From: Hydnum rufescens UP504 | Lineage: Eukaryota > Basidiomycota > Agaricomycetes > Cantharellales > Hydnaceae | Direction: 5' to 3' | Length of the DNA: 64,000 bases | Assembly (NCBI GenBank): GCA_014904985.1 | Contig: MU129079.1 | Span: forward strand, 1 to 64,000 | Shown: positions 34,623 through 63,589 of the stretch, piece by piece | Layout: each line of letters begins with the position of its first letter | How positions within the stretch are numbered: position 1 is the first letter of the stretch | Made by a program: the position numbers and the translations under genes | Notes under the pieces: model-generated | What the model saw: only the letters and a program-made list of their open reading frames with translations | Told to the model about the DNA's origin: nothing | The model's database searches: none

Positions 34623-35382
34623 CATTTACAGCTGTTTGCAATTTACAAGGCGCGGCGGAAATTTTACATCCGGGAGATGGGTGCCAATAGTGAAATCGAA
34701 CGCAGCCCATATCTTGCCCAATTCCTACGATAAAAATATGAAAAATATACCATTAGATAGCCCTATGTGTTACCTAGCAACACACACTGTTATATTTGCT
34801 TGAACTTCTGAATTAATCATGGTAGAGGAGGTGTCGACGGGAGTCCACCCTTGACCACACGCAAGCTTGTCTGAAACCAAATCTCATTGGAATATTTCCT
34901 AAAATATTTTTTAATGTGTAATACAAGTGCTTCTAGCGCCTTGGGGCCTTTTTTTTTTGGATCTTTGTATTTCTTGCACACAGAAAGGACATATATTTAT
35001 CTAGGTGAATACATGTCCTTTCTGTGTACAAGAAATACAAGTGCCCAATTAAAAAAGGCCCCAGGGCGCTAGAAGCACTTGTATTACGCGTTAAAAAATA
35101 TTTTAGGAAATATTCCAATGAGATTTGGCTTCAGACCAGCTTGCGTGTGGTCAGGGGTGGGCTCCCGTCGACACCTCCTCTACCACAATCAATTCAGAAG
35201 TTCAAGCAAATATAACAGTGTGTGTTGCTAGGTAACACAGAGGGCTATCTAATGGTATATTTTTCATATTTTTATCGTAGGAATTGGGCAAGATATGGGC
35301 TGCGTTCGATTTCACTATTGGCGCCCATCCCTCGGATGTAAAATTTCCGCCGCGCCTTGTAAATTGCAAACAGCTGTAAATG
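34623..35382. mobile_element. 760-bp palindrome (fold-back element) in copy A
   Basis: The two halves, 34623-35002 and 35003-35382, are reverse complements with scattered mismatches out to the ends (left end CATTTACAGCTG, right end CAGCTGTAAATG). Mirror-image open frames at 34887-35072 (+) and 34933-35118 (-) confirm the symmetry. Copy B has only about 30 bp of unrelated sequence at the corresponding place (about 57205-57240), so it was gained in A or lost in B. It ends 65 bp before the GTPase start codon. No transposase and no clear target duplication; a fold-back or MITE-like element is the best description. Confidence 0.85.
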
Positions 35383-35447: not shown

Positions 35448-38400
35448 ATGTGGATATCTATTCGCAACCGTTTTAAAGCTAGCCACAAAGACGGCGATAC
35501 AAACAGGCGCTTCAGGGTCCTCATACTTGGACCAGCGAACGCAGGAAAGACCACTCTACTCGAGCGACTAACGGACAGCCCTGCCGGCACGGCCATAGTG
35601 ACCCGCAACGGAAAACGTGTAATCACTGTAGATGCTCGAACTCAGTAGAGATGCTGGTCTAATTCATCCCTTTATCCAAGGTCAAGGAGGTCCCCAAAGG
35701 ATACGATCAAGTAAGCGCCATCCTAGCAAAGGTGCACTGCGGTTGCTCGATGCTTTCACACCATCTAGCGAGGGATCCATAATATCGACGACGAAATCAC
35801 TTACGCATCAAACCCGGCATTCATTTTCCACGACTCTGGTGGTTTCGAGGCAGGAGGGGTCGAGGAGCTCGATGCCGTCTGGAAATTTATTCGAAAGCGC
35901 TCCTTAGCTTCGCCTTTGAACCAGCTGCATGCGATTTGGTGCGTTCACTCATGCAGTTCAGACATCATCATACTTTGACTCACCAGTTGCTACAGGCTCT
36001 GTATTCCAACAGATAATGACAGGCCCTTTGGATTCCTGCAGTCAGGCTTTTTCTCCGAATCCACAGCATCAGGTATGTCCCATCAGTCGCGGCATTCGAC
36101 ACTATCTGTTACGCACTGGTCCATGCATCCGTTCAGTGCCTGTTATTGGAGTTTTCACCAAGTTGGATGGAAGAAGGACGAAAGTGGAGATTGAGGTTCT
36201 AGGCCCTGCTCCCAGCCCATCCGATTTCCGCGATCGTGCCCAGGAGGTGGATCAGAAAGTAGCTGAATTTGTCAATGGACTCGAGACACAATTTCGCAAT
36301 GAGCGGTACCCACCGGCTGGTTTCATCGGGGTTGGAAGTATGTATACTCTATCCAAGCAGCAAATTTTGCACTTAAATCTATGGCCTAAAGACATGGATG
36401 AAGTTAGCATGCAGAGCATGGCATTGTGTGACCAACTTCTTCTAGTCACTATGGATGCTCTTCCCCATGAGACCCAGAGATCATTGCTGAGGCTCACGGT
36501 TTGGAAAAGAAACCGCCGAATTCATACCATGTTTGTTTTAAAGCGGTGAGTTTGGATGTCCAACAGATTGATGGTGTCTCATGATTGTGTTTATCTCAGT
36601 GTCCTTCATGCTGGAACTCAAGGTCCTGTGTTAAGCTGTATTGATGAGATGATGGTACAATTTGACCATGTTCAGGGAGCATTGTGGCTAGAACCCAACA
36701 ACCTGTGCAAGATGAAGAATCAGAGTTACATGCAGACTTGGGTTTCAGGATTCTTATGGTGAGTGAATATATCCCTTGCACATTTAAGGTACTGATTGTA
36801 TCATGGGGGGTATAACTGTGGCAACTGGTCCTGACAATATGACATATAATTTACTCATTGGATGGTGTTGACAACATAGGAGGTATGCCTGCAGGTGTTC
36901 ACATTTGGTGCACAATCATTGGTTTACATGTCTCTTTGTGACACTGTCAATGTAGTTGGTCAGTCTGGATCTTGAATACATGGTCACTGACTGATATAAT
37001 TTTTGCTGCCATTGGGAACACAGTATGTGAGTCCAGATCTCCCCCAATTCCATGCATAGTCATTCCTGATACAGCTTCTGGTGGAATCCACAACACAGGG
37101 GGTGAGTTTATGTCTCTTAGTTGATATGAGGTGGCTGTATATCTTTTGATGGCATGGATAACATAGCATGTGAGCATGGATCTCTCACCTTTAGATCCAC
37201 ACTGTCACCAGCTGATATATCCTTTGGTGACATCAACCATGTAGGAGGTAAGATTGCACCTGTCATAGTTTCATATGTGGTCACTAGCTGATAGAACATT
37301 TGGTGGTGTGAATATAGGATGTGGGTTGGATTTCCCCACCATTCAATGTGTTATGGCTGACTCATAGAACTTTTCCATGGCATAAACAACATAGATTGTA
37401 TGTCCAGATGTCTTGGAATTTGATGCATGGTCACTGACTGATAAATATTTTATATTGACATTCACACTGTAGTATGTAAGTGTGGATTCAACATGAGATC
37501 CATGGTTGATACATCATTAGGTGCAATGGATAAATAGGAGGTTAGTCCATATCTCCCAGCTTTCATTGGTGATTGTTGGCCAATGCATCATTTGGTGACA
37601 TGGATAATGTAGTATGTAAGTAGGAATTTGCTATAAGTTAGCACCTGGTCACTGGTTGATCTATCATCCAATGGCATGGACAATGCAGAAAGTAAGCCTG
37701 GATCTCTTATACAATTAGATGTCCTTGGGCAGGCTGATATCTCTTTGTCTGTCATTAACAATGTAGGGAGTAAGTTCAGATCTCTCACAATCTGATGTAT
37801 GGTCCCTCATTGGTACATCATTTGGTATTGACACCACAGCCTGTAAGTTTGGATATCTCCCAATTTGTTGAGTGTGGTTGCCAGCTAATACATTGTTGGA
37901 TAACACTGATAATATAGGATGTAAGTCTGGATCTCCTCCCCCTTGATGCACTATCACTGGCTGACACATCACTGGATGACATAAATAACCAAGAATGTGG
38001 GCTGTCTGTCAATTTTGTGCTTGATCATTGGCTGATCCATCTTCTGGTGGCACTGACAACATAGAATGTAAATCTGAATTTCTGACTATTCAATCTATTG
38101 TTGTTGGCTAATATATTTTTTGGTGAGGTAACAATGAAGGCTGTATGTTTGGTTCTTTTCCAATGAAATGTACAGGTGCAGACTGATATTTCTTGGTCTG
38201 AATGGACAATGCAGGAAGTAGGGCTGGATCTCACAATTTGATGCATGGTCACTTTCTGATACATTGTTTGTTCCCATTGACAATGTAGCATGTAAGTTCA
38301 GATCCCTGCTAATTAAACATGGGATCCCTGGCCAATATATTCTTTGGTGACCTTGATAATGTAGCATGTAGGTTCTGCTGCCACTTTGATGGACAATCAC

Positions 38401-41400
38401 TGGCTGATACATTCTGGATGAACTTGACAATATAGCAGGTGAGCCTGGCTCACTTTTGACTCAGTGTGTGGTGACCTGCTGACCCCACCAATGGCATCAA
38501 TGATGTAGCTGGTGGGCCCAGGAGTTCTCACAATTTGATGCAGGATTGCTGGCTGATTCATCATCTGGTTGCATTGACAATGTAGGAAGTGAGTAACCTC
38601 CCCCACTGCTTGATATATAGGTGTTGGCTGATATATTGCCTGTATCACAAATGTAGGCTGTATGTTGAGATCTCTTCCAATTCAATGTGAGGTCATTGAC
38701 TGATACACTGTTTGGTGGCATGGACAATGTAAGATGGTAAGATTGCATCTACCACCATTCATTGAGTGGCCCTCAGTTGTTATACTTGTGTGGCCTTAAC
38801 ACCATAGTATGTAAGTCCACATCTCAGTCTGATTCATGCACAGTGTCTGCCTGATTCAGTGTTTGGTGGCTTCTGAAAACAAGAGGGTAGGTCTGGATAC
38901 TTGAATTCCATATGTCACTGCTAGCTGATGTATCATTTCATGCTTTTGACAACACAGATGGTAAGATGGGATCCCTGAGAATTTGATGCAAGGTGCTGAT
39001 TGGTTGGTCAACCTGAACACTGTAGGATGTAAGTGCATATCACCCTCCTGGTTATGAGTTGATACATCTTTGGGTGGCATTGAAAATGTAGGAAGTAGGT
39101 GTCTGAATGTCTGAGAATTTAACACATCATCCCTTGCTGATTCATCACTTGGTGCCATTGATCACATAGCATGTAAGTGTGGATGTCATAGAATTCAATG
39201 GATTCTCCCTTACTCATTCATCATTTGGTGCCATTGACCTCATAGCAAGTATGGATGCCATAGAATTCAATGGATTGTCCTGTGCTGATTCATCATTTGG
39301 TGCCATTGACCTCATAGATTGTAAGTGTGAATGCCATAGAATTCAATGGATTGTCCCTTGCTGATTCATCATTTGGTGCCATTCACCACATAGGATGTAA
39401 GTGTGGATGTCATAGAATTCAATGGATTGTCCCTTGCTAGTTCATCATTTGGTGCCATTCACCACACAGCCTGTAAGTGTGGATGTCATGGAATTCAATG
39501 GATTGTCCCTTGCTGATTCATCATTTGGTGCCATTCACCACACAGGAAGTAGGTGTGGATGTCATAGAATTCAATGGATTGTCCCTTGCTAATTCATCAT
39601 TTGGTGCCATTGACCACATAGCTTGTAAGTGTAGATGTCATAGAATTCAATGGATTCTCCCTTGCTCATTCATCATTTGATGCCATTGACCACATAGTAT
39701 GTAAGTGTGGATGTCATAGAATTCAATGGATTCTCCTATGGTGATTCATCATTTGGTGCCATTGACCACATAGCTTGTAAGTGTGGATGTCATAGAATTC
39801 AATGGATTCTCCCTTGCCAATTCATCATTTGGTGCCATTCACCACATAGTATGTAAGTGTGGATGTCATAGAATTCAATGGATTGTCCCTTGCTGATTCA
39901 TCATTTGGTGCCATTCACCACATAGCATGTAAGTGTGGATGTCATAGAATTCAATGGATTATCCCTTGCTGATTCACCATTTGGTGCCATTCACCACATA
40001 GCTTGTAAGTGTGGATAGAATTCAATGGATTGTCCCTTGCTGATTCATCATTTGGTGCCATTCACCACATAGATTGTAAGTGTGGATGTCATAGAATTCA
40101 ATGGATTGTCCCTTGCTGATTCATCATTTGGTGCCATTCACCACATAGCTTGTAAGTGTGGATGTCATAGACTTTAATGGATTGTCCCTTGCTGATTCAT
40201 CATTTGGTGCCATTCACCACATAGCAAGTAAGTGTGGATGTCATCAAATTCAATGGATTGTCCCATGCTGATTCATCATTTGGTGCCATTCACCACATAG
40301 CGTGTAAGTGTGGATGTCATAGAATTCAATGGATTGTCCCTTGCTAATTCATCATTTGGTGCCATTCACCACATAGATTGTAAGTGTGGATGTCATGAAA
40401 TTCAATGGATTGTCCCATGCTGATTCATCATTTGGTGCCATTCACCACATAGCATGTAGGTGTGGATGTCATAGAATTCAATGGATTGTCCCTTGCTAAT
40501 TCATCATTTGGTGCCATTCACTGCATAGCGTGTAAGTGTGGATGTCACAGAATTCAATGGATTGTCCCTTGCTAATTCATCATTTTGTACCATTGACCAC
40601 ATAGGATGTACGTGTGGATGTCATAGAATTCAATGGATTGTCCCTTGCTGATTCATCATTTGGTGCCATTCACCACACAGCCTGTAAGTGTGGATGTCAT
40701 GGAATTCAATGGATTGACCCTTATGATTCATCATTTGGTGCCATTCACCACATAGGCTGTAAGTGTGGATGTCATAGAGTTCAATGGATTGTCCCTTGCT
40801 AATTCATCATTTGGTGCCATTCACCACACAGGAAGTAAGTGTGGATGTCATAGAATTCAATGGATTGTCCCTTGCTGATTCATCATTTGGTGCCCCTCAC
40901 CACATAGTATGTAAGTGTGGATATCATACAATTCAATAGATTGTCCCTTGCTGATTTATCATTTGGTGTCATTCACCACATAGCTTGTAAGTGTGGATGT
41001 GATAGAATCCAATGGATTGTCCCTTATAATTCATCATTTGGTGCCACTGACCACATAGGTTGTAAGTGTGGATGTCATAGAATCTAATGGATTGTCCCTT
41101 ATGATTCATCATTTGATGCCATTGACCACATAGGATGTAAGTGTGGATGTCATAGAATCCAATGGATTGTTCCTTGCTGATTCATCTTTTGGTGATATTG
41201 ACAACATAGATTGTAAGTCCAGACCTCTCAGAATTTGATGCATCTTCTTCACCAATTCATCTTTTCATTTCATTGACAATGTAGCAAGTGAGTCTGAATG
41301 TCTTGGAATTCAATACATCATCCCTTGCTGATTTCCTTTTTTAATGATAATGCAGCCTGTAAGTCCAGATGTCTCAGAATTCCATTCACCCTTACTTCAT

Positions 41401-44400
41401 CATGTCCCACTTGGTGGTTTTGTCCCATAGGAGGTCAGTCCACACCTCCCACTCTTGGATTTGTGATCTCTGGATAATCTCTTGTTTCACTACATCTATA
41501 ACATAGCATGTATGTCCCCTCTCTTACCATTCTGTGTATGGTCCTGGCTCATACACATCTCACTGACATTTACAATGTTAGCTTGTGAGTTCATAAATTT
41601 ATATGATGGAATAATATCCTATTTTTTGGCTGCACTCCTTATGCATGGATTTATTACAGGATAATGTAAGTTACATCTAATGTGCCAAAGCCAAATCATT
41701 CTGTGGTATTGCAGTCTCATCATTGCTCCCCTGTTATCTGGTAAATATTGTCAAGCCTCACTTCAATCATTGTCCTTATCTCTCCCAAATTTTATTAGGT
41801 GCTCAAATATTCAGGCAGTCAGGGCCTGTGTGCCCTTCCTTAAACTGTTGGTCAGTTTAGGTTCTTGTTCATTTCCCCCCTCCAGGATGTCTAAGCAACC
41901 ATTCCAGCATCACCTGCCTATTCCATCACACCAAATCTTCAGTATCTGGTGTTTATTTGTTGTCAGGGTTGTGACTAATTCTAACTGTGGAAGAGATTGC
42001 TGATCTTGGTTTGTCAACCCAGTGGTCATCCTTTGGATTCGGAGGGGGGGGGAATGCTGATTCACCTGATGCATCTCTCCCTCAAACAACAANNNNNNNN
42101 NNNNNNNNNNNNNNNNNNNNNNNNNNNNNNNNNNNNNNNNNNNNNNNNNNNNNNNNNNNNNNNNNNNNNNNNNNNNNNNNNNNNNNNNNNNNNNNNNNNN
42201 NNNNNNNNNNNNNNNNNNNNNNNNNNNNNNNNNNNNNNNNNNNNNNNNNNNNNNNNNNNNNNNNNNNNNNNNNNNNNNNNNNNNNNNNNNNNNNNNNNNN
42301 NNNNNNNNNNNNNNNNNNNNNNNNNNNNNNNNNNNNNNNNNNNNNNNNNNNNNNNNNNNNNNNNNNNNNNNNNNNNNNNNNNNNNNNNNNNNNNNNNNNN
42401 NNNNNNNNNNNNNNNNNNNNNNNNNNNNNNNNNNNNNNNNNNNNNNNNNNNNNNNNNNNNNNNNNNNNNNNNNNNNNNNNNNNNNNNNNNNNNNNNNNNN
42501 NNNNNNNNNNNNNNNNNNNNNNNNNNNNNNNNNNNNNNNNNNNNNNNNNNNNNNNNNNNNNNNNNNNNNNNNNNNNNNNNNNNNNNNNNNNNNNNNNNNN
42601 NNNNNNNNNNNNNNNNNNNNNNNNNGTTAAGTGTGGATAGAATTCAATGGATTGTCCCTGCTGATTCATCATTTGGTGCCATTCACCACATAGATGTAAG
42701 TGTGGATGTCATAGAATTCAATGGATTGTCCCTTGCTGATTCATCATTTGGTGCCATTCACCACATAGCTTTAAGTGTGGATGTCATAGACTTTAATGGA
42801 TTGTCCCTTGCTGATTCATCATTTGGTGCCATTCACCACTACAGTAAGTGTGGATGTCATCAAATTCAATGGATTGTCCCTGCTGATTCAGCATTTGGTG
42901 CCATTCACCACATAGCTTGTAAGTGTGGATAGAATTCAATGGATTGTCCCTTGCTGATGTCATAGAATTCATGGATGTCATTGAAATTCAATCGATTTCA
43001 GCTGATGTCATCATGGTGCCATTGCACCCACATAGCATGTAGTGTGGATGTCATAGAATTCAATGGATTGTCCCTTGCTATTCATCATTTGTGCATTCAC
43101 TGCATGGTGTAAGTGTGGATGTCACAGAATTCAATGGATTGTCCCTTGCTAATTCATCATTTTGTACCATTGACCACATAGGATGTACGTGTGGATGTCA
43201 TAGAATTCAATGGATTGTCCCTTGCTGATTCATCATTTGGTGCCATTCACCACACAGCCTGTAAGTGTGGATGTCATGGAATTCAATGGATTGACCCTTA
43301 TGATTCATCATTTGGTGCCATTCACCACATAGGCTGTAAGTGTGGATGTCATAGAGTTCAATGGATTGTCCCTTGCTAATTCATCATTTGGTGCCATTCA
43401 CCACACAGGAAGTAAGTGTGGATGTCATAGAATTCAATGGATTGTCCCTTGCTGATTCATCATTTGGTGCCCCTCACCACATAGTATGTAAGTGTGGATA
43501 TCATACAATTCAATAGATTGTCCCTTGCTGATTTATCATTTGGTGTCATTCACCACATAGCTTGTAAGTGTGGATGTGATAGAATCCAATGGATTGTCCC
43601 TTATAATTCATCATTTGGTGCCACTGACCACATAGGTTGTAAGTGTGGATGTCATAGAATCTAATGGATTGTCCCTTATGATTCATCATTTGATGCCATT
43701 GACCACATAGGATGTAAGTGTAGATGTCATAGAATCCAATGGATTGTTCCTTGCTGATTCATCTTTTGGTGATATTGACAACATAGATTGTAAGTCCAGA
43801 CCTCTCAGAATTTGATGCATCTTCTTCACCAATTCATCTTTTCATTTCATTGACAATGTAGCAAGTGAGTCTGAATGTCTTGGAATTCAATACATCATCC
43901 CTTGCTGATTTCCTTTTTTAATGATAATGCAGCCTGTAAGTCCAGATGTCTCAGAATTCCATTCACCCTTACTTCATCATGTCCCACTTGGTGGTTTTGT
44001 CCCATAGGAGGTCAGTCCACACCTCCCACTCTTGGATTTGTGATCTCTGGATAATCTCTTGTTTCACTACATCTATAACATAGCATGTATGTCCCCTCTC
44101 TTACCATTCTGTGTATGGTCCTGGCTCATACACATCTCACTGACATTTACAATGTTAGCTTGTGAGTTCATAAATTTATATGATGGAATAATATCCTATT
44201 TTTTGGCTGCACTCCTTATGCATGGATTTATTACAGGATAATGTAAGTTACATCTAATGTGCCAAAGCCAAATGATTCTGTGGTATTGCAGTCTCATCAT
44301 TGCTCCCCTGTTATCTGGTAAATATTGTCAAGCCTCACTTCAATCATTGTCCTTATCTCTCCCAAATTTTATTAGGTGCTCAAATATTCAGGCAGTCAGG

Positions 44401-44791
44401 GCCTGTGTGCCCTTCCTTAAACTGTTGGTCAGTTTAGGTTCTTGTTCATTTCCCCCCTCCAGGATGTCTAAGCAACCATTCCAGCATCACCTGCCTATTC
44501 CATCACACCCAAATCTTCAGTATCTGGTGTTTATTTGTTGTCAGGGTTGTGACTAATTCTAACTGTGGAAGAGATTGCTGATCTTGGTTTGTCAACCCAG
44601 TGGTCATCCTTTGGATTCGGAGGGGGGGGAATGCTGATTCACCTGATGCACCTGAAATAGAGCACACCACTGACTTGATCCAGGCTCAAATCAGGAGTGA
44701 CTTGGTGGATTATGGAGATTTTCAAGCACTGGACTCATATGCTACTGCAGACAGACTGGCAAGGATCATTGATGACTACACACCAATGTAA
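35448..44791 (+). CDS. P-loop GTPase gene with array of 3-nt exons, copy A
   Basis: Regular exons 35448-35618, 35681-35710, 35769-35938, 35996-36072, 36137-36545 and 36600-36758 (1016 nt, all phases fit). They encode an Agaricomycete-type GTPase: G1 GPANAGKTT, GIHNIDDEITYASNPAFIF then HDSGG (G3), and TKLD (G4), followed by a helical region. The last of these exons ends two bases into a codon (TG). It is followed by 64 intron-like units separated by single triplets and one sextuplet (41660-41665). Ordinary exons resume at 41715-41740 (LIIAPLLS) and 41799-41850, then about 64 nt (41886-41948, one base short here; intact at 44463-44525), and a terminal exon at 44601-44791 ending RLARIIDDYTPM. 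The phase of the terminal exon depends on a poly-G length and is not settled. The gap and false duplication lie inside the gene. Confidence 0.72.
36759..41665 (+). repeat. Tandem array of intron-like units with 3-nt spacers, copy A
   Basis: Each unit begins with GT (mostly GTAAGT, GTGAGT or GTATGT) and ends with AG (mostly CATAG, TGTAG or CACAG). Most carry CTGAT/CTAAT/CTGAC about 25-35 nt before the end. By my count 64 consecutive spacers between AG and GT are exactly 3 nt and the last is 6 nt. The first 32 units (36759-39170) are strongly diverged and 57-80 nt long. From about 39170 to 41210 units are nearly identical at 73 + 3 nt, and the last five diverge again. Example spacers: GAG at 36880-36882 and TTG at 36956-36958. 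The conserved splice signals amid divergent bodies argue for function in splicing. Continuous open frames on either strand are by-products of the 76-nt period. Confidence 0.88.
42093..42625. other. Assembly gap (533 N)
   Basis: Run of N. Open frames that cross it are artefacts. The bases just before it (42075-42092) already depart from the matching sequence in the other copies. Confidence 0.99.
42626..44640. repeat. Second assembly of 40005-42065 after the gap
   Basis: From 43191 on, the sequence matches 40614-42065 at a constant offset of 2577 with only a few differences. The first 500 bp match 40005-40560 but with many missing bases (for example triplets or GTAAGT shortened by one). This is what two unmerged contig ends look like. 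It is therefore probably not a biological tandem duplication, although a true one cannot be excluded. Confidence 0.8.
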
Positions 44792-53017: not shown

Positions 53018-53466
53018 TAGTCTCGTGACCAGACCTCAGCTACTGCTGAAGGTCTGGCAGAATGGGGAGTTCCGAAGGCGCGGGCACGAAGCTTCCGCTC
53101 CAGCCAATCACAAAAAGTTTTGACCGGCGTTTGCCGTGTCTTTCAGTTGGCTTTGACTCACAAATATTCCTTGATGTTACGCCTGATATTATTCGGATTA
53201 TTATCGCTCGCAGTATGCTTGTTTCCAAATACAACTCCCTCTCCCCCCTCTCCATCAAATCCCTGTTTTGGTGCCGGATCACTAAAGTGGAGGCCCGCAG
53301 ACAGACCATAATTGGCCAGGAGATCAGTGCATACCCAACTGAAAACCACGGCAAATGCCGGTCAAAACTTTTTGTGATTGGCTGGAGCGGAAGCTTCGTG
53401 CCCGTGCCTTCGGAACTCCCCATCTCACCAGACCCTCAGTTTACTGTGGGTCTGGTCACGAGACTA
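53018..53466. mobile_element. 449-bp MITE nested in the MULE
   Basis: Terminal inverted repeats of roughly 130 bp start TAGTCTCGTGACCAGACC at both ends. The inner parts (for example CCAATCACAAAAAGTTTTGA) also match. It is flanked by the 9-bp direct repeat AAAACTCAC at 53009-53017 and 53467-53475. The duplicated bases are part of the MULE's own right inverted repeat, so the MITE inserted into the MULE. A 9-bp duplication also suggests Mutator-type mobilisation. Mirror open frames on both strands (MGSSEG.GTKLPLQP) are due to the inverted repeats. Confidence 0.93.
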
Positions 53467-53542
53467 AAAACTCACGTGCCTCGGTTCTTCTGAGAGGTTT
53501 ATTGCATCAAATGTCCAAGGCTTCGCGAATCACCTTCACACC

Positions 53543-55611
<2,069 letters not shown>

Positions 55612-56880: not shown

Positions 56881-57294
56881 TCATCAAGAGAAGCTGACGT
56901 CACGTTCTCATTCGTCTGAGTGGGGCTTGACGGCACCATCTTCACGTGACTGATTCGCGCTTCACGGCCGTTGTCTAGCATGCCGATTGGGACGTGTTCG
57001 GCCAGACTCCATGCACTGAGGCAAAATCACATCCAGTATCTGGAACGAGGGGCCCAAAAGGATCAGATCTAGGGTCTACCGAATTTCACATAGAGAGCGA
57101 GATAACAATATTTTCCTCTCTTGGAGTCTCTGGTGCCAGATCAGGCATGGCACGAGTTCGTGCTTCTCGGACAGGAGCTAGGCAAATTGACATAACCGGG
57201 AAGCTCCTGTTGGCTGGCTTTTGACAATTTGTAGCATTCGCATTTCACACTGCATACCCCCACGCCCTTTCTCTCCTCGTCCGATCCTTCAGCG

Positions 57295-60200
57295 ATGTGG
57301 AAATATATTCGCAAGCTTCTTAAAATCGACCGCGATAAGCGCTTTAGGGTCCTCATACTTGGATCGGCGAACGCAGGAAAGACCACTCTGCTCGAGCGAC
57401 TAACGGACAGCCCTGCCGGCGCGGCCATAGTGACCCGCAACGGAAAACGTGTAATTACTGTAGATGTTCGAACCCAGTAGAGATGCTGGTCTAATGTATC
57501 CCTTTATCCAAGGTCAAGGGGGTCCCCAGAGGATACGATCAAGTAAGAGCCATCCTAACAAAGGTGCACTGCGGTTGCTCGATGCTTTTACACCATCTAG
57601 CGAGGGATCCATAATATCGACGACGAAATCACTTACGCGTCAAACCCGGCATTCATTTTCCACGACTCTGGTGGTTTCGAGGCGGGAGGGGTCGAGGAGC
57701 TCGAGGCTGTCTGGAAATTTATTCGAAAGCGCTCGTTGGCTTCGCCTTCGAAGCAGCTGCATGCGATTTGGTGCGTTCACGCATGCAGTTCACACCTCTT
57801 CATATGTCGACTCATCAATTGTTGCAGGCTCTGTATTCCGACAGATAATGACAGACCCTTTGGATTCCTGCAGTCAGGCTTTTTCTCCGAATCCACAGCA
57901 TCAGGTATGTCCCATCAGTCGCGGCATTCGACACTATCTGTTATGCACTGGTCCATATATCCGTTCAGTGCCTGTTATTGGAATTTTCACCATGTTGGAT
58001 GGAAGAAGGACGAAAGTGGAGATTGAGGTTCTAGGCCCTGCTCCCCGCCCATCCGATTTCCGCGATCGTGCCCAGGAGGTGGATCAGAAAGTAGCTGAAT
58101 TTGTCAATAGACTCGAGACACAATTTCGCAATGAGCGGTACCCACCTGCTGGTTTCATCGGGGTTGAAAGTATGTATGCTCTATCCAAGCAGCAATTTTG
58201 GCACTTAAATCTACGGCCTAAAGACATGCATGAAGTTAGCATGCGGAGCATAGCATTGTGTAACCAACTTCTTGTAGTCACTATGGATGCTCTTCCCGAT
58301 GAGACCCAAAGATCATTAGTTAGGCTCACGGTTTGGAAAAGAAACCGCCGAATTCATACCATCTTTGTTTTAAAGCGGTGAGTTTGGATGTCCAATAGAT
58401 TGCTGGTGGCTCATGATTGTGATTATCTCATAGTGTCCTTGATGCTGGAACTGAAGGTCCTGTCTCAAGTTGTATTGATGAGATGATGGTACAATTTGAC
58501 TATGTTCAGGTAACATTGTAGCCAGAACCCAACAACCTGTGCAAGATGAAGACTCAGAGTTACATGCAGACTTGGGTTTCAGGATTCTTATGGTGAGTGA
58601 ATATATCCCTTGCACAACATTTAAGGTACTGATTGTATCATGGGGGGTATAACTGTGGCAACTGATTCTGACAATATGACACATAATTTACTGGTGTTGA
58701 CAACATAGGAGGTATGCCTGCAGGTGTTCACTATTTGGTGCACAATCATTGGCTTACATGTCTCTTTGTGATGCTGTCAATGTAGTTGGTCAGTCTGGAT
58801 CTTGAATACATGGTCACTGACTGATATAATTTTTGCTGCCATTGGGAACACAGTATGTGAGTCCAGATCTCCCCCAATTCCATGCATAGTCATTCCCTGA
58901 TACAGCTTCTGGTGGAATCCACAACACAGGGGGTGAGTTGATGTCTTTTAGTTGATATGGGGTGGCTGTATATCTTTTGGTGGCATGGATAACATAGCAT
59001 GTAAGCATGGATCTCCCACCTTTAGATTTACATTGTCACCAGCTGATATGTCCCTTGGTGACATCAACCATGTAGGAGGTAAGACTGCACCTGTCATAGT
59101 TTCATATGTGGTCACCAGCTGATAGAACATTTGGTGGAATGAACATAGGATGTGGGTTGGATTTCCCCACCATCCAATGTGTTATGGCTGACTCATACAT
59201 CTTGTCCATGCCACAAACAACATAGCTTGTATGTCCAGATGTCTTGGAATTTGATGGATAGTCACTGACTGATAAATATTTTATTGACATTCACACTGTA
59301 GTATGTAAGTGTGGATTCAACATGGGATCCATGGTTGATACATCATTATGTGCAATGGATAAAATAGGAGGTCAGTCCATATCTCCCAGCTTTCATTGGT
59401 GATTGTTGGCCAATGCATCATTTGGTGACATGGATAATGTAGTATGTAAGTAGGGATTTCATATAAGTTAGCACCTGGTCCCTGGTTGATCCATCAGCCA
59501 ATGGCATGGACAATGTAGAAAGTAAGTCTGGATCTCTTACAATTAGATGTGCTTGGGCAGGCTGATATCTCTTTGTCTGTCATGGACAATGTAGGAAGTA
59601 AGTTCAGATCTCTCACAATCTGATGCATGGTCCCTCATTGGTACATCATTTGGCATTGATGTCACAGCCTGTAAGTTTGGATATCTCCCAATTTGTTGAG
59701 TGTGGTCATGGGCTAATACATTATTGGATAACATGATAATATAGGAGGTAAGTCTGGATCTCCTCCCCCTTGATACACTATCACTGGATGACATAAATAA
59801 CCAAGAATGTGGGGTGTCTTTCAATTTTGTGCTTGATCATTAGCTGATCCATCTTCTGGTGGCACTGACAACATAGAATGTAGATCTGAATTTCTGACTA
59901 TTCAATCTATTGTTGTTGGCTAATATATCTTTTTGTGATGTTGACAATGGAGGATGTATGTTTGGTTCTTTTCCAAGGAAATGTACAGGTGCAGACTGAT
60001 ATTTCTTGGTCTGAATGGACACTGCAGGAAGTAGGGCTGGATCTCACAATTTAATGCATTGTCACTGTCTGATACATTGTTTGTTCCCATTGATGATGTA
60101 GCATGTGAGTTCAGATCTCTGCTAATTAAACATGGGATCACTGGCCAATCTATTCTTTGGTGACATTGATAATGTAGCCTGTAGGTTCTGCTGCCACTTT

Positions 60201-63200
60201 GAGGCACAATCACTGGCTGATACAGTCTGGATGAACTTGACAATATAGCAGGTGAGCCTGGCTCACTTTTGACTCAATGTGTGGTGACTTGCTGATCTCA
60301 CCAATGGCATCAACAATGTAGCTGGTGGGCCCAGGAGTTCTCACAATTTGATGCAGGATTTCTGGCTGATTCATCATCTGGCTACATTGACAATGTAGGA
60401 AGTGAGTGACCTCCCCCACCACTTGATATATAGGTGGTTGGCTGATACATTGCCTGGTGGTATCACAAATGTAGACTGTATGTTGAGATCTCTTGCAATT
60501 GAATGTGAGGTCATTGACTGATACACTGTTTGGTGGGATGGACAATGTAAGATGGTGAGATTGCATCTACCACCATTTATTGAGTGGCCCTCAGTTGTTA
60601 TACTTGTGTGGCCTTAACACCATAGTATGTAAGTCCACATCTCAGTCTGATTCATGCATGGTGTCTGCCTGATTCAGTGTTTGGTGGCTTCTGCAAACAA
60701 GAGGGTAGGTCTGGATACTTGAATTCCATATGTCACTGCTAGTTGATGTATCAGTTCATGGTTTTGATAACATAGATGGTAAGATGGGATCCCTGAGAAT
60801 TTGATGCAAGATGCTGATTGGTTTGTCAACCTGAACACTGTAGGATGTAAGTGCATATCACCCACCTGGTTATGAGTTGATACATCTTTGGGTGGCATTG
60901 AAAATGTAGGAAGTAAGTGTCTGCATGTCTGAGAATTTGACACATCCCTTGCTGATTTATCATTTGGTGCCATTGACCTCATAGCAAGTAAGTGTGGATG
61001 TGATTGAATTCAATGGATTGTCCCTTGCTGATTCATCATTTGGTTCCATTGACCTCATAGCTTGTAAGTGTGGATGTGATTGAATTCAATGAATTGTCCC
61101 TTTGCTGATTCATCATTTGGTGCCATTGACCACATAGCAAGTAAGTGTGGATGTGATAGAATTCAATGGATTGTCCATTGCTGATTCATCATTTGGTGCC
61201 ATTGACCACATAGACTGTAAGTGTGGATGTCATAGAGTTCAATGGATTGTCCCTTGCTGATTTATCATTGGGTGCCATTGACCACATAGCTTGTAAGTGT
61301 GGATGTGATAGAATTCAATGGATTGTCCCTTGCTGATTCATCATTTGGTGCCATTAACCACATAGCTTGTAAGTGTGGATGTGATTGAATTCAATGGATT
61401 GTCCCTTGCTGATTCATCTGATCATCATTGGGTGCCATTCACTGCATAGGATGTAAGTGTGGATATGATAGAATCCAATGGATTGTCCCTTGCTGATTCA
61501 TCATTTGGTGCCATTGGCCACATAGACTGTAAGTGTGGATGTGATTGAATTCAATGGATTGTCCCTTGCTGATTCATCATTGGGTGCCATTCACCACATA
61601 GTATGTAAGTGTGGATGTGATAGTATTCAATGGATTGTCCCTTGCTGATTCATCATTTGGTGCCATTGGCCACATAGGCTGTAAGTGTGGATGTGATTGA
61701 ATTCAATGGATTGTCCCTTGCTGATTCATCATTGGGTGCCATTCACCACATAGTATGTAAGTGTGGATGTGAAATAATTCAATGGATTGTCCCTTGCTGA
61801 TTCATCATTGGGTGCCATTCACCACATAGGATGTAAGTGTGGATGTGATAGAATTCAATGGATTGTCCCTTGCTGATTCATTATTTGGTGCCATTGACCA
61901 CCTAGGATGTAAGTGTGGATGTGATAGAATCCAATGGATTGTCCCTTGCTGATTCATCATTTGGTGCCATTCACCACATAGGAGGTAAGTGCGGATGTGA
62001 TTGAATTCAATGGATTGTCCCTTGCTGATTCATCATTGGGTGCCATTCACCACATAGGATGTAAGTGTGGATGTGATAGAATTCAATAGATTGTCCCTTG
62101 CTGATTCATCATTGGGTGCCATTCACCACATAGCTTGTAAGTGTGGATGTGATAGAATTCAATAGATTGTCCCTTGCTGATTCATCATTGGGTGCCATTG
62201 ACCACATAGCAAGTAAGTGTGGATGTGATAGAATTCAATGGATTGTCCATTGCTGATTCATCATTTGGTGCCATTGACCACATAGGATGTAAGTATGGAT
62301 GTGATAGAATTCAATGGATTGTCCCTTGCTGATTCATCATTTGGTGCCATTGACCACATAGCAAGTAAGTGTGGATGTCATAGAGTTCAATGGATTGTCC
62401 CTTATGATTCATCATTTGGTGCCATTGACCACATAGCAAGTAAGTGTGGATGTCATAGAGTTCAATGGACTGTCCCTTGCTGATTCATCACTGGGGGGTG
62501 CCATTGACCACATAGCATGTAAGTGTGGATGTCATAGGATTCAGTGGATTCTTGCTTGCTGATTCATCTTTTGTGATATTGACAACATAGGTTGTAAGTC
62601 CAGATCTTTTAGAATTTGAGCTTCTTCTTCACCAATTCATCTTTTTGTTTCATTGACAATGTAGCAAGTGAGTCTGAATGTCTTGGAATCCAATACATTC
62701 TCCCTTCCTGATTTCCTTTTTTAATGATAATGCAGCCTGTAAGTCCAGATGTCTCAGAATTCTATCCACCCTTACTTGATCATGTCCCACTTGGTGGTTT
62801 TGTCCCATAGGAGGTCAGTCCACACCCCCACTCTTGGATCTGTGATCTCTGGACACTCTTATTTCACTACATCTACAACATAGGATGTATGTGCCCTCTC
62901 TTACAATTCTGTGTGGTCCTGGCTCATACACATCTCACTGACATTTACAATGTTAGCTTGTGAGTTCATAAATTTATACAATGGAATAATATTGTATTTT
63001 TTGGTTGCACTCCTTATACTTGGATTTATTACAGGATAATGTAAGTTACCTCTAATGTGCCAAAGCCAAATGATTCTGTGTAATTGCAGTCTCATCATTG
63101 CTCCCCTGTTATCTGGTAAATATTGTCAAGCCTCACTTCAATCATTGTCCTTATCTCTCCCAAATTTTATTAGGTGCTCAAATATTCAGGCAGTCAGGGC

Positions 63201-63589
63201 CTGTGTGCCCTTCCTTAAACTGTTGGTCAGTGTAGGTTCTTGTTCATTTCCCCCCTCCAGGATGTCTAAGCAACCATTCCAGCATCACCTGCCTATTCCA
63301 TCACACCCAAATCTTCAATATCTGGTGTTCATTTGTTGTCAGGGTTGTGACTAATTCTAACTATGGAAGAGATTGCTGATCTTGGTTTGTCAACCCAGTG
63401 GTCATCCTTTGGATTCAGAGGAGGGGGAATGCTGATTCACCTGATGCACCTGAAATAGAGCACACCACTAACTTGATCCAGGCTCAAATCAGGAGTGACT
63501 TGGTGGATTATGGAGATTTTCAAGCACTGGACTCATATGCTATTGCAGACAGACTGGCAAGGATCACTGATGACTACACACCAATGTAA
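57295..63589 (+). pseudogene. P-loop GTPase gene with array of 3-nt exons, copy B
   Basis: Parallels copy A. Starts MWKYIRKLLKIDRDKRFRV with G1 GSANAGKTT; exons run to about 58595, then the triplet array, then ordinary exons and the terminal exon ending RLARITDDYTPM at 63589. Two differences suggest loss of function. The G4 motif is TMLD at 57989-58000 (copy A TKLD), removing the Lys that contacts guanine. A TGG of copy A is TAG at 58519-58521 in the exon just before the array. The array itself keeps every AG-NNN-GT junction. Because the rest is intact, copy B is the better template for the exon order downstream of the array (no gap). Confidence 0.7.
58596..63025 (+). repeat. Tandem array of intron-like units with 3-nt spacers, copy B
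   Basis: By my count 58 consecutive 3-nt spacers followed by the 6-nt GATAAT, against 64 in copy A. The first 31 units align one-to-one with copy A and differ in only a handful of triplets (for example ATT/CTT, GGA/GAA, GAT/GAG, GCT/GAT, CAT/CCT, GCT/ACT). The homogenised middle (about 60980-62560) has its own set and number of units, with a body variant GTGATAGAATTC or GTGATTGAATTC where copy A has GTCATAGAATTC. So the middle has expanded or been converted separately in each copy. Confidence 0.88.

Follow-up and report, generated by a model that had tools for sequence, protein, structure and literature searches.

A GTPase gene of Hydnum rufescens whose middle part is probably built from consecutive single-codon exons

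The array and the gene that holds it

Here we analyzed a window of 64,000 nucleotides from the genome of Hydnum rufescens UP504 (Cantharellales, hedgehog mushroom; contig MU129079.1, positions 1 to 64,000 of the forward strand), which carries two genes, here called A and B, whose predicted GTPase exons run into long arrays of introns standing three nucleotides (nt) apart (Table 1). The array of gene A (36759-41665) comprises 65 introns of 62-121 nt, and its spacers measure exactly 3 nt in 64 cases, from GAG at 36880 to CTT at 41582, and 6 nt in the last one (GATAAT). Acceptors are TAG in 49 introns, CAG in 12 and AAG in four (those before 37994, 38140, 38734 and 38884), and in 42 of the 65 introns a CTRAY motif occurs whose A lies 20-40 nt upstream of the intron end. 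A preliminary description of this DNA had proposed a chain of units from 36759 with 64 spacers of 3 nt and a final one of 6 nt, CTRAY in most units and exact spacing even in the diverged first units; the chain was recovered to the base, and the spacing holds despite the wide range of intron lengths.

The exact spacing throughout array A was obtained with a second parser that gives a bonus to 3-nt exons and tolerates weak sites, and the sites that it printed were inspected by eye. The parser used for the codon counts reported below is biased to 3-nt exons, the unbiased evidence being that of the controls in which exon length was free. When exons were allowed any length between 1 and 60 nt, the splice-chain search gave array A a score of 216, with 52 of the 59 exons being 3 nt long. 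One hundred dinucleotide shuffles of the array reached a top score of 20.2 in this search and at most two 3-nt exons, both strands of window positions 1-30000 gave a top score of 8, and the array-free strand of 19 array loci scored at most 11. Resemblance to the central intron consensus was found in 23 of the 30 flanking introns of array A (z > 3), the maximum reached by seven ordinary introns being 3.0.

Conceptual splicing of the exons of gene A yields a single open frame, which is at phase 0 both on entering and on leaving the array, so that each triplet corresponds to one codon. Several changes between paralogues near the array junction (GAC/GAT, AAG/AAA, GGT/GGC/GGG and CTT/CTC) are synonymous in this frame. 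GenBank protein P0001, very probably the annotated product of gene A, matches the spliced gene except around 35618-35710, and its end reads ...GFRILM and then enters the first array intron. The flanking exons had been drawn differently in the preliminary description: its exon 36600-36758 is split by an intron at 36623-36675, and its exon 41715-41740 was rejected because several paralogues lack the acceptor, the next coding exon being 41815-41850. A reading of the array in phase 2, which gave a hydrophobic run, was likewise rejected, as the paralogues and P0001 reveal the extra intron that leads to phase 0. The C-terminal part after the array consists of three exons, with AVRACVPFLKLL, then HHLPIPSHPNLQYLVFIC into LVILWIRR, then a tail with the stop codon; all three were found in 17 of the 22 array loci examined and are open and in frame in those 17. 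The hydrophobic segment with LVILWIRR is taken as a predicted membrane anchor (transmembrane segment).

Alignment of 31 proteins identified GPANAGKT, HDSGG and TKLD, which we take to be the G1, G3 and G4 motifs, as conserved columns, placing the upstream part among the P-loop (TRAFAC-type) GTPases. The query for the Pfam search and for the G-domain protein and exon searches was an early model of gene A, in which one intron was kept and one exon end was wrong; with this model Pfam Arf scored 22.5 bits, just above its cut-off of 22.3, and the G domain matched GenBank proteins of the same strain. The fold search returned generic GTPases with weak TM-scores (mostly 0.3-0.5), entries for GM4951 and Irga6 being on top, and these matches were set aside as evidence of function. 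Pfam gave no family for the part running from the last ordinary exon to the stop, nor for P0125 and P0126, two environmental proteins described below.

Table 1. Predicted features of genes A and B in the window
Feature	Position	Strand	Remarks
Gene A, GTPase exons	35448-35618, 35681-35710, 35769-35938, 35996-36072, 36137-36337, 36392-36545	+	Conceptual splicing, one open frame
Gene A, short coding exon VLHAGTQ	36600-36622	+	Conceptual splicing; junction as in P0001
Gene A, last ordinary exon before the array	36676-36758	+	Conceptual splicing; ends ...GFRILM, phase 0
Array A, first intron	36759-36879	+	Array parse; 121 nt
Array A, diverged 5' part with conserved codons	36880-39094	+	31 putative single-codon exons, ELYGHEDIYEYKGPDNNAEHHQLEAMYRMDE; similar in paralogues
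Array A, variable part	39170-41212	+	28 putative single-codon exons, HQIDPELYLYHLILQRIHRDPAEYLVDI; introns near-identical, mostly 73 nt
Array A, 3' conserved codons QPEHL	41285-41584	+	Array parse
Array A, last exon GATAAT (DN)	41660-41665	+	Array parse
Gene A, C-terminal exons, first assembled copy	41815-41850, 41908-41961	+	Cut off by assembly gap
Assembly gap	42093-42625		533 N
Gene A tail, second assembled copy	42626-44791	+	C-terminal exons 44392-44427, 44485-44539, 44601-44791
Array B, neighbouring paralogue	58593-63040	+	58 putative single-codon exons and GATAAT (63035-63040)
Gene B, C-terminal exons	63190-63225, 63283-63337, 63399-63589	+	With hydrophobic segment YLVFICLVILWI

Codons and introns across the array family

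A search of the genome with five array units gave 380 matches on many contigs, and searches with the C-terminal DNA and with the G domain gave at least 40 scored matches and at least 203 exon matches, respectively. We examined 22 arrays, namely A, B and 20 further loci of the same genome, and the family is probably larger than this set. Among the matches listed, a G-domain or C-terminal match of the GTPase family lies near 20 of the 21 array places compared (A, B and 19 other loci), the remaining one being on C476, a contig equal in length to that of the family member P0139. Fifteen loci, A and 14 others, were clean. The other seven (L034, L041, L042, L043, L044, L047 and L049) were set aside from the codon counts, L044 because it has no 5' anchor, even though each of its 41 slots measures 3 nt. 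In L034, L042 and L047, stretches of identical introns stand next to slots that are 1, 2 or 4 nt long.

Not a single stop codon was found in the codon frame of the 1112 triplets of the clean loci. Position-specific composition would predict 23 stops, and intron or pooled composition 66-70, the triplets not being independent because flanking array codons are common to paralogues. Shifted frames gave 2 stops in 1092 triplets (+1) and 210 in 1092 (+2), and the 574 variable codons taken on their own held none against about five expected. In the variable-part 73-nt introns of 14 loci, within-locus diversity averages 0.087 over the intron and is 0.015 at the donor +5 G, 0.015 at the branch T and 0.013 at the branch A; a few further intron positions are also low in diversity, such as T27 (0.016). 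Few intron positions vary as little as the splice signals do. Since GT and AG are fixed by the parser, the introns that were merged for failing GT/AG offer a fairer measure of these signals, and they number 10 among 1102: six with a GC donor, which is a splice-competent form, one with an AT donor, one with a lost acceptor and two unclear ones in L048. The six GC-AG introns (GCAAGT), in place of GT donors, lie inside the arrays of L031, L035, L037 and L046.

The codons of the same 14 loci have within-locus diversities of 0.61, 0.67 and 0.25 at positions 1, 2 and 3, respectively. When unit pairs with identical 73-nt introns were compared, the codon differed in 81.5% of 92 pairs, which is about the same as in pairs with diverged introns. 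The third base of the 574 variable codons is T in 467 and C in two: fourfold boxes have T in 275 of 287 codons and another base in 12, and the other boxes (n = 287) have T in 192, A in 72, G in 22 and C in one, with Gln and Glu codons mostly ending in A and Trp carrying G. Third-position diversity in fourfold boxes (0.076) is similar to that of the introns. Comparison of the conserved 5' codons between eight loci (28 locus pairs) revealed 189 nonsynonymous and 8 synonymous differences, and divergence in this part is 0.116 at codon position 1, 0.143 at position 2 and 0.070 in introns. Codon composition also differs among loci (chi-square P = 1.9e-22 for eight loci, small cells included). From these diversity comparisons, used here in place of a codon-model test, we infer that the middle codons may be under diversifying selection at the amino acid level, and that the introns would be kept alike by amplification or exchange between units.

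Growth of the arrays by tandem duplication of blocks was considered and rejected, as in 14 loci intron similarity depends little on distance or on the neighbouring units. The spatial signal is weak (rho = 0.16 in A, 0.18 in L032, 0.10 in L039, -0.13 in L035 and -0.07 in L036; P between 0.002 and 0.03), and the diagonal correlation of intron similarity is 0.24 in L045. Repeated blocks of four to five codons (L033, L045, L039 and L050, and four GAT in L035) were likewise discarded, being near chance by a rough estimate.

Joined array peptides and the competing explanations

Among 67 homologous proteins examined, 12 environmental ones from short contigs carry array peptide (P0032, P0038, P0068, P0123, P0125, P0126, P0131, P0134, P0135, P0136, P0137 and P0147). 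In P0126, whose contig measures 983 nt, 71 residues separate the conserved VYRRD from the C-terminal exons; at 76 nt per unit, the genomic counterpart of this stretch would occupy about 5 kb. The number of array residues joined is 42 in P0125 (1448-nt contig), 33 in P0032, up to 26 in P0123, and 29 in each of P0068 and P0135, which share the same peptide. The remaining six proteins join a few codons and then continue into an intron: four codons in P0038, P0137 and P0147 (only the first four residues), eight in P0131, nine in P0136 and 11 in P0134. When the retained-intron tails of these six were compared with 1602 introns, the best match always sat at the same codon index, an internal duplicate in L043 being excluded from the comparison with other indices; matches at the own index are 22/22 in P0147, 20/22 in P0038, 19/22 in P0137 and 10/10 in P0131, compared with 7-9 at other positions. 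At its upstream start P0125 agrees in all 11 of 11 residues with the intron preceding codon 16, and the ordinary introns spanned by the array-peptide proteins are mostly absent.

Taking together the spacing, the open frame, the 21 further arrays (14 of them clean), the splice signals and the environmental proteins, we consider it highly likely that 36759-41665 is the middle of a GTPase gene, in which 64 single-codon exons and one two-codon exon are spliced one by one into the protein. Gene A itself would be spliced codon by codon, judging from its sister arrays and the environmental proteins. The proposal in the preliminary description that splicing of each unit is under selection gains support from the open frame through flanks and array, the little-varying splice signals and the joined array peptide; its interpretation of the triplets as exons stood, its flanking exons were partly wrong, and the hypervariability of the codons and the family of arrays had gone unseen.

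Several observations weigh against this conclusion. Inclusion of the micro-exons is observed in environmental proteins of very similar genes and is a prediction for H. rufescens itself, and the contigs of these proteins are presumed to be of RNA origin on the basis of the proteins, not of the contig DNA; retrocopies of spliced RNA would back the same conclusion, genomic copies that never had introns would not. Two proteins seem to retain the first array intron, namely P0133 and P0024, the latter crossing ordinary exons with no intron between them. Known introns gave no good match to the tails of P0032, P0068 and P0123, and the tail matches are narrow in P0136 (6/6 versus 5 at other positions) and in P0134 (12/21 versus 10). 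In the GenBank models of the family that were read the run of array codons is absent, a few seeming to hold one to three of them. The invariance of GT and AG in the arrays is built into the parser. Finally, 1112 of the 1117 slots in the clean loci are 3 nt long and five are odd, and the seven set-aside loci have 345 of 412 slots of 3 nt, two stops (both in L041) and, in six of the seven, slots of 1, 2, 4 or more nt. The odd slots of the set-aside loci are probably due to consensus errors or collapse during assembly, or possibly to the decay of the genes.

Were the array removed as one or a few large introns, with 36758 joined to 41660 or 41815, the triplets would not be exons of the mature mRNA; skipping any number of units keeps the frame and GenBank models such as P0001 do lack the array, but nearly every unit retains its splice signals, no stop interrupts the 1112 codons and array peptide is present in 12 environmental proteins, so that we find this very improbable. 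The joined forms in those proteins also speak, as do the coding flanks, against a non-coding satellite whose 3-nt spacing was inherited from one amplified unit. A satellite would fit the homogeneous centre and the diverged edges, but the spacing is kept in the diverged edge units despite intron lengths of 62-121 nt, and we give this idea next to no credence.

Two further explanations concern the origin of introns and codons. Introner-like elements could have invaded an existing exon at every codon boundary, in which case the codons would be older than the introns, and this agrees with intron similarity being almost unrelated to distance or neighbouring units and with codons being uncoupled from intron sequence. 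We judge such an invasion quite unlikely, given that almost all intervals measure 3 nt, that a third base that is T in 467 of 574 codons and C in two is not expected of an ordinary exon, and that most diverged flanking introns of array A are related to the central ones, which fits amplification of a unit of intron plus codon. Codon diversity could also stem from a mutagenic process aimed at the triplet, with an effect like that of diversity-generating retroelements, which are defined by a reverse transcriptase and a template repeat, rather than mainly from selection. Such a process, doubtful in our opinion, would be consistent with codons still differing in most pairs with identical 73-nt introns and with changes falling mostly on the first two codon bases; against it, non-T third bases are found mainly where they alter the amino acid, as selection predicts (95 of 287 codons in the other boxes, 94 of them A or G, versus 12 of 287 in fourfold boxes), and composition is strongly different between loci.

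If the codons are spliced in one by one, as we favour, a 3-nt exon could hardly accommodate both splice complexes simultaneously. Removal of the introns is therefore probably stepwise, with one codon joined to the upstream exon before splicing proceeds to the next donor. The partly joined environmental forms are consistent with stepwise joining, although P0125 has lost downstream introns and still keeps an upstream one, so that removal would not follow a strict 5' to 3' order. A regular unit being one codon at phase 0, skipping a unit would leave the frame intact, and a single gene could give rise to many peptides; no isoform with skipped units was seen, no search able to reveal one having been made. 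We suggest tentatively, with slightly more doubt than conviction, that this may be a eukaryotic way of rewriting a protein one codon at a time, in which codons held in interchangeable introns are gained, lost, swapped or skipped without breaking the frame. The role is the least certain part: the array peptide may form a fast-changing recognition surface on a predicted membrane-anchored GTPase and, since homogenized repeats with diversified codons are also found in het-d and het-e of Podospora, non-self recognition is a reasonable guess by analogy. Should codon-by-codon splicing hold, the spliceosome copes with dozens of 3-nt exons in a row, each leaving hardly any room for donor and acceptor complexes together; this would provide a test for models of exon recognition and stepwise splicing and a route to protein diversity with the single codon as the unit of evolution. 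Since the run of array codons is missing from the gene models of the family that were read, genes of this kind may be going unnoticed elsewhere.

Known systems and neighbouring features

Micro-exon genes are defined by a run of very small exons in multiples of 3 nt, and as sequence the 64 spacers of array A form such a run; those of schistosomes are similarly chains of small exons in 3-nt multiples, but their micro-exons are longer and their proteins are secreted. The defining feature of introner-like elements is the presence of near-identical intron copies in many unrelated genes; here, among the matches listed, 20 of the 21 array places lie near matches of the GTPase family, a comparison made for arrays and not for dispersed single copies. 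The hallmark of HNWD and other fungal NLR proteins is a NACHT domain with WD40 repeats. Neither was among the Pfam matches of the GTPase part, and the likeness to HNWD, homogenized repeats with diversifying selection at few codons as judged by diversity comparison, is thus one of evolution and not of membership.

In the Podospora genes het-d and het-e (HNWD), WD repeats evolve in concert while diversifying selection acts on four residues of each repeat (PMC1805685; PMC2873952); those repeats are coding and part of a WD domain, whereas in Hydnum it is the introns that are conserved as repeats, and each variable codon makes up an entire exon. Introner-like elements of fungi are, as in the Hydnum arrays, near-identical spliceosomal introns, and they multiply (PMC4457414), the Hydnum introns being arranged head to tail within one gene family. 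Many very small exons are also present in the bicycle and megacycle genes of aphids, which are putative effector genes (PMC9168663), the megacycle gene of M. sacchari having 118 exons for a protein of 2092 residues; these exons hold far more than one codon, however, and the protein is a different one. Splicing of isolated 1-nt exons is reported for Arabidopsis APC11 and Fusarium CYP621A (PMC12940212; PMC4674806), and hence for a fungus too (PMC12940212), with one tiny exon per gene as opposed to the run of 64 in array A. No earlier case of a long run of 3-nt (single-codon) exons emerged from our search of the open-access literature, with preprints and most subscription papers outside its scope, in line with the preliminary description, which knew of none; the term '3-nt exon' does occur once in a paper on Drosophila microexons.

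Genes A (35448-36758) and B (57280-58595) are tandem paralogues with 93.9% identity over 1256 nt upstream of the arrays, yet their variable segments look unrelated. The C-terminal exons of gene B are annotated as a separate protein of 95 residues, P0122. In the first assembled copy of the gene A tail, exon 41908-41961 is 1 nt shorter than its counterparts in the paralogues. Over 2073 nt the second copy of the tail is 97.0% identical to the first, the differences being 8 mismatches and 29 gap openings, and this combination of few mismatches with many gap openings suggests that 42626-44791 is probably an assembly duplicate. Just upstream of gene A, 34623-35382 is an inverted repeat with arms of 380 nt, 94% complementary and without spacer, resembling a foldback or miniature inverted-repeat transposable element; a further inverted repeat (53046-53439) has arms of 110 nt that are 90% complementary and 174 nt apart, and a gene at 53540-55600 resembles, by eye, prolyl iminopeptidase.

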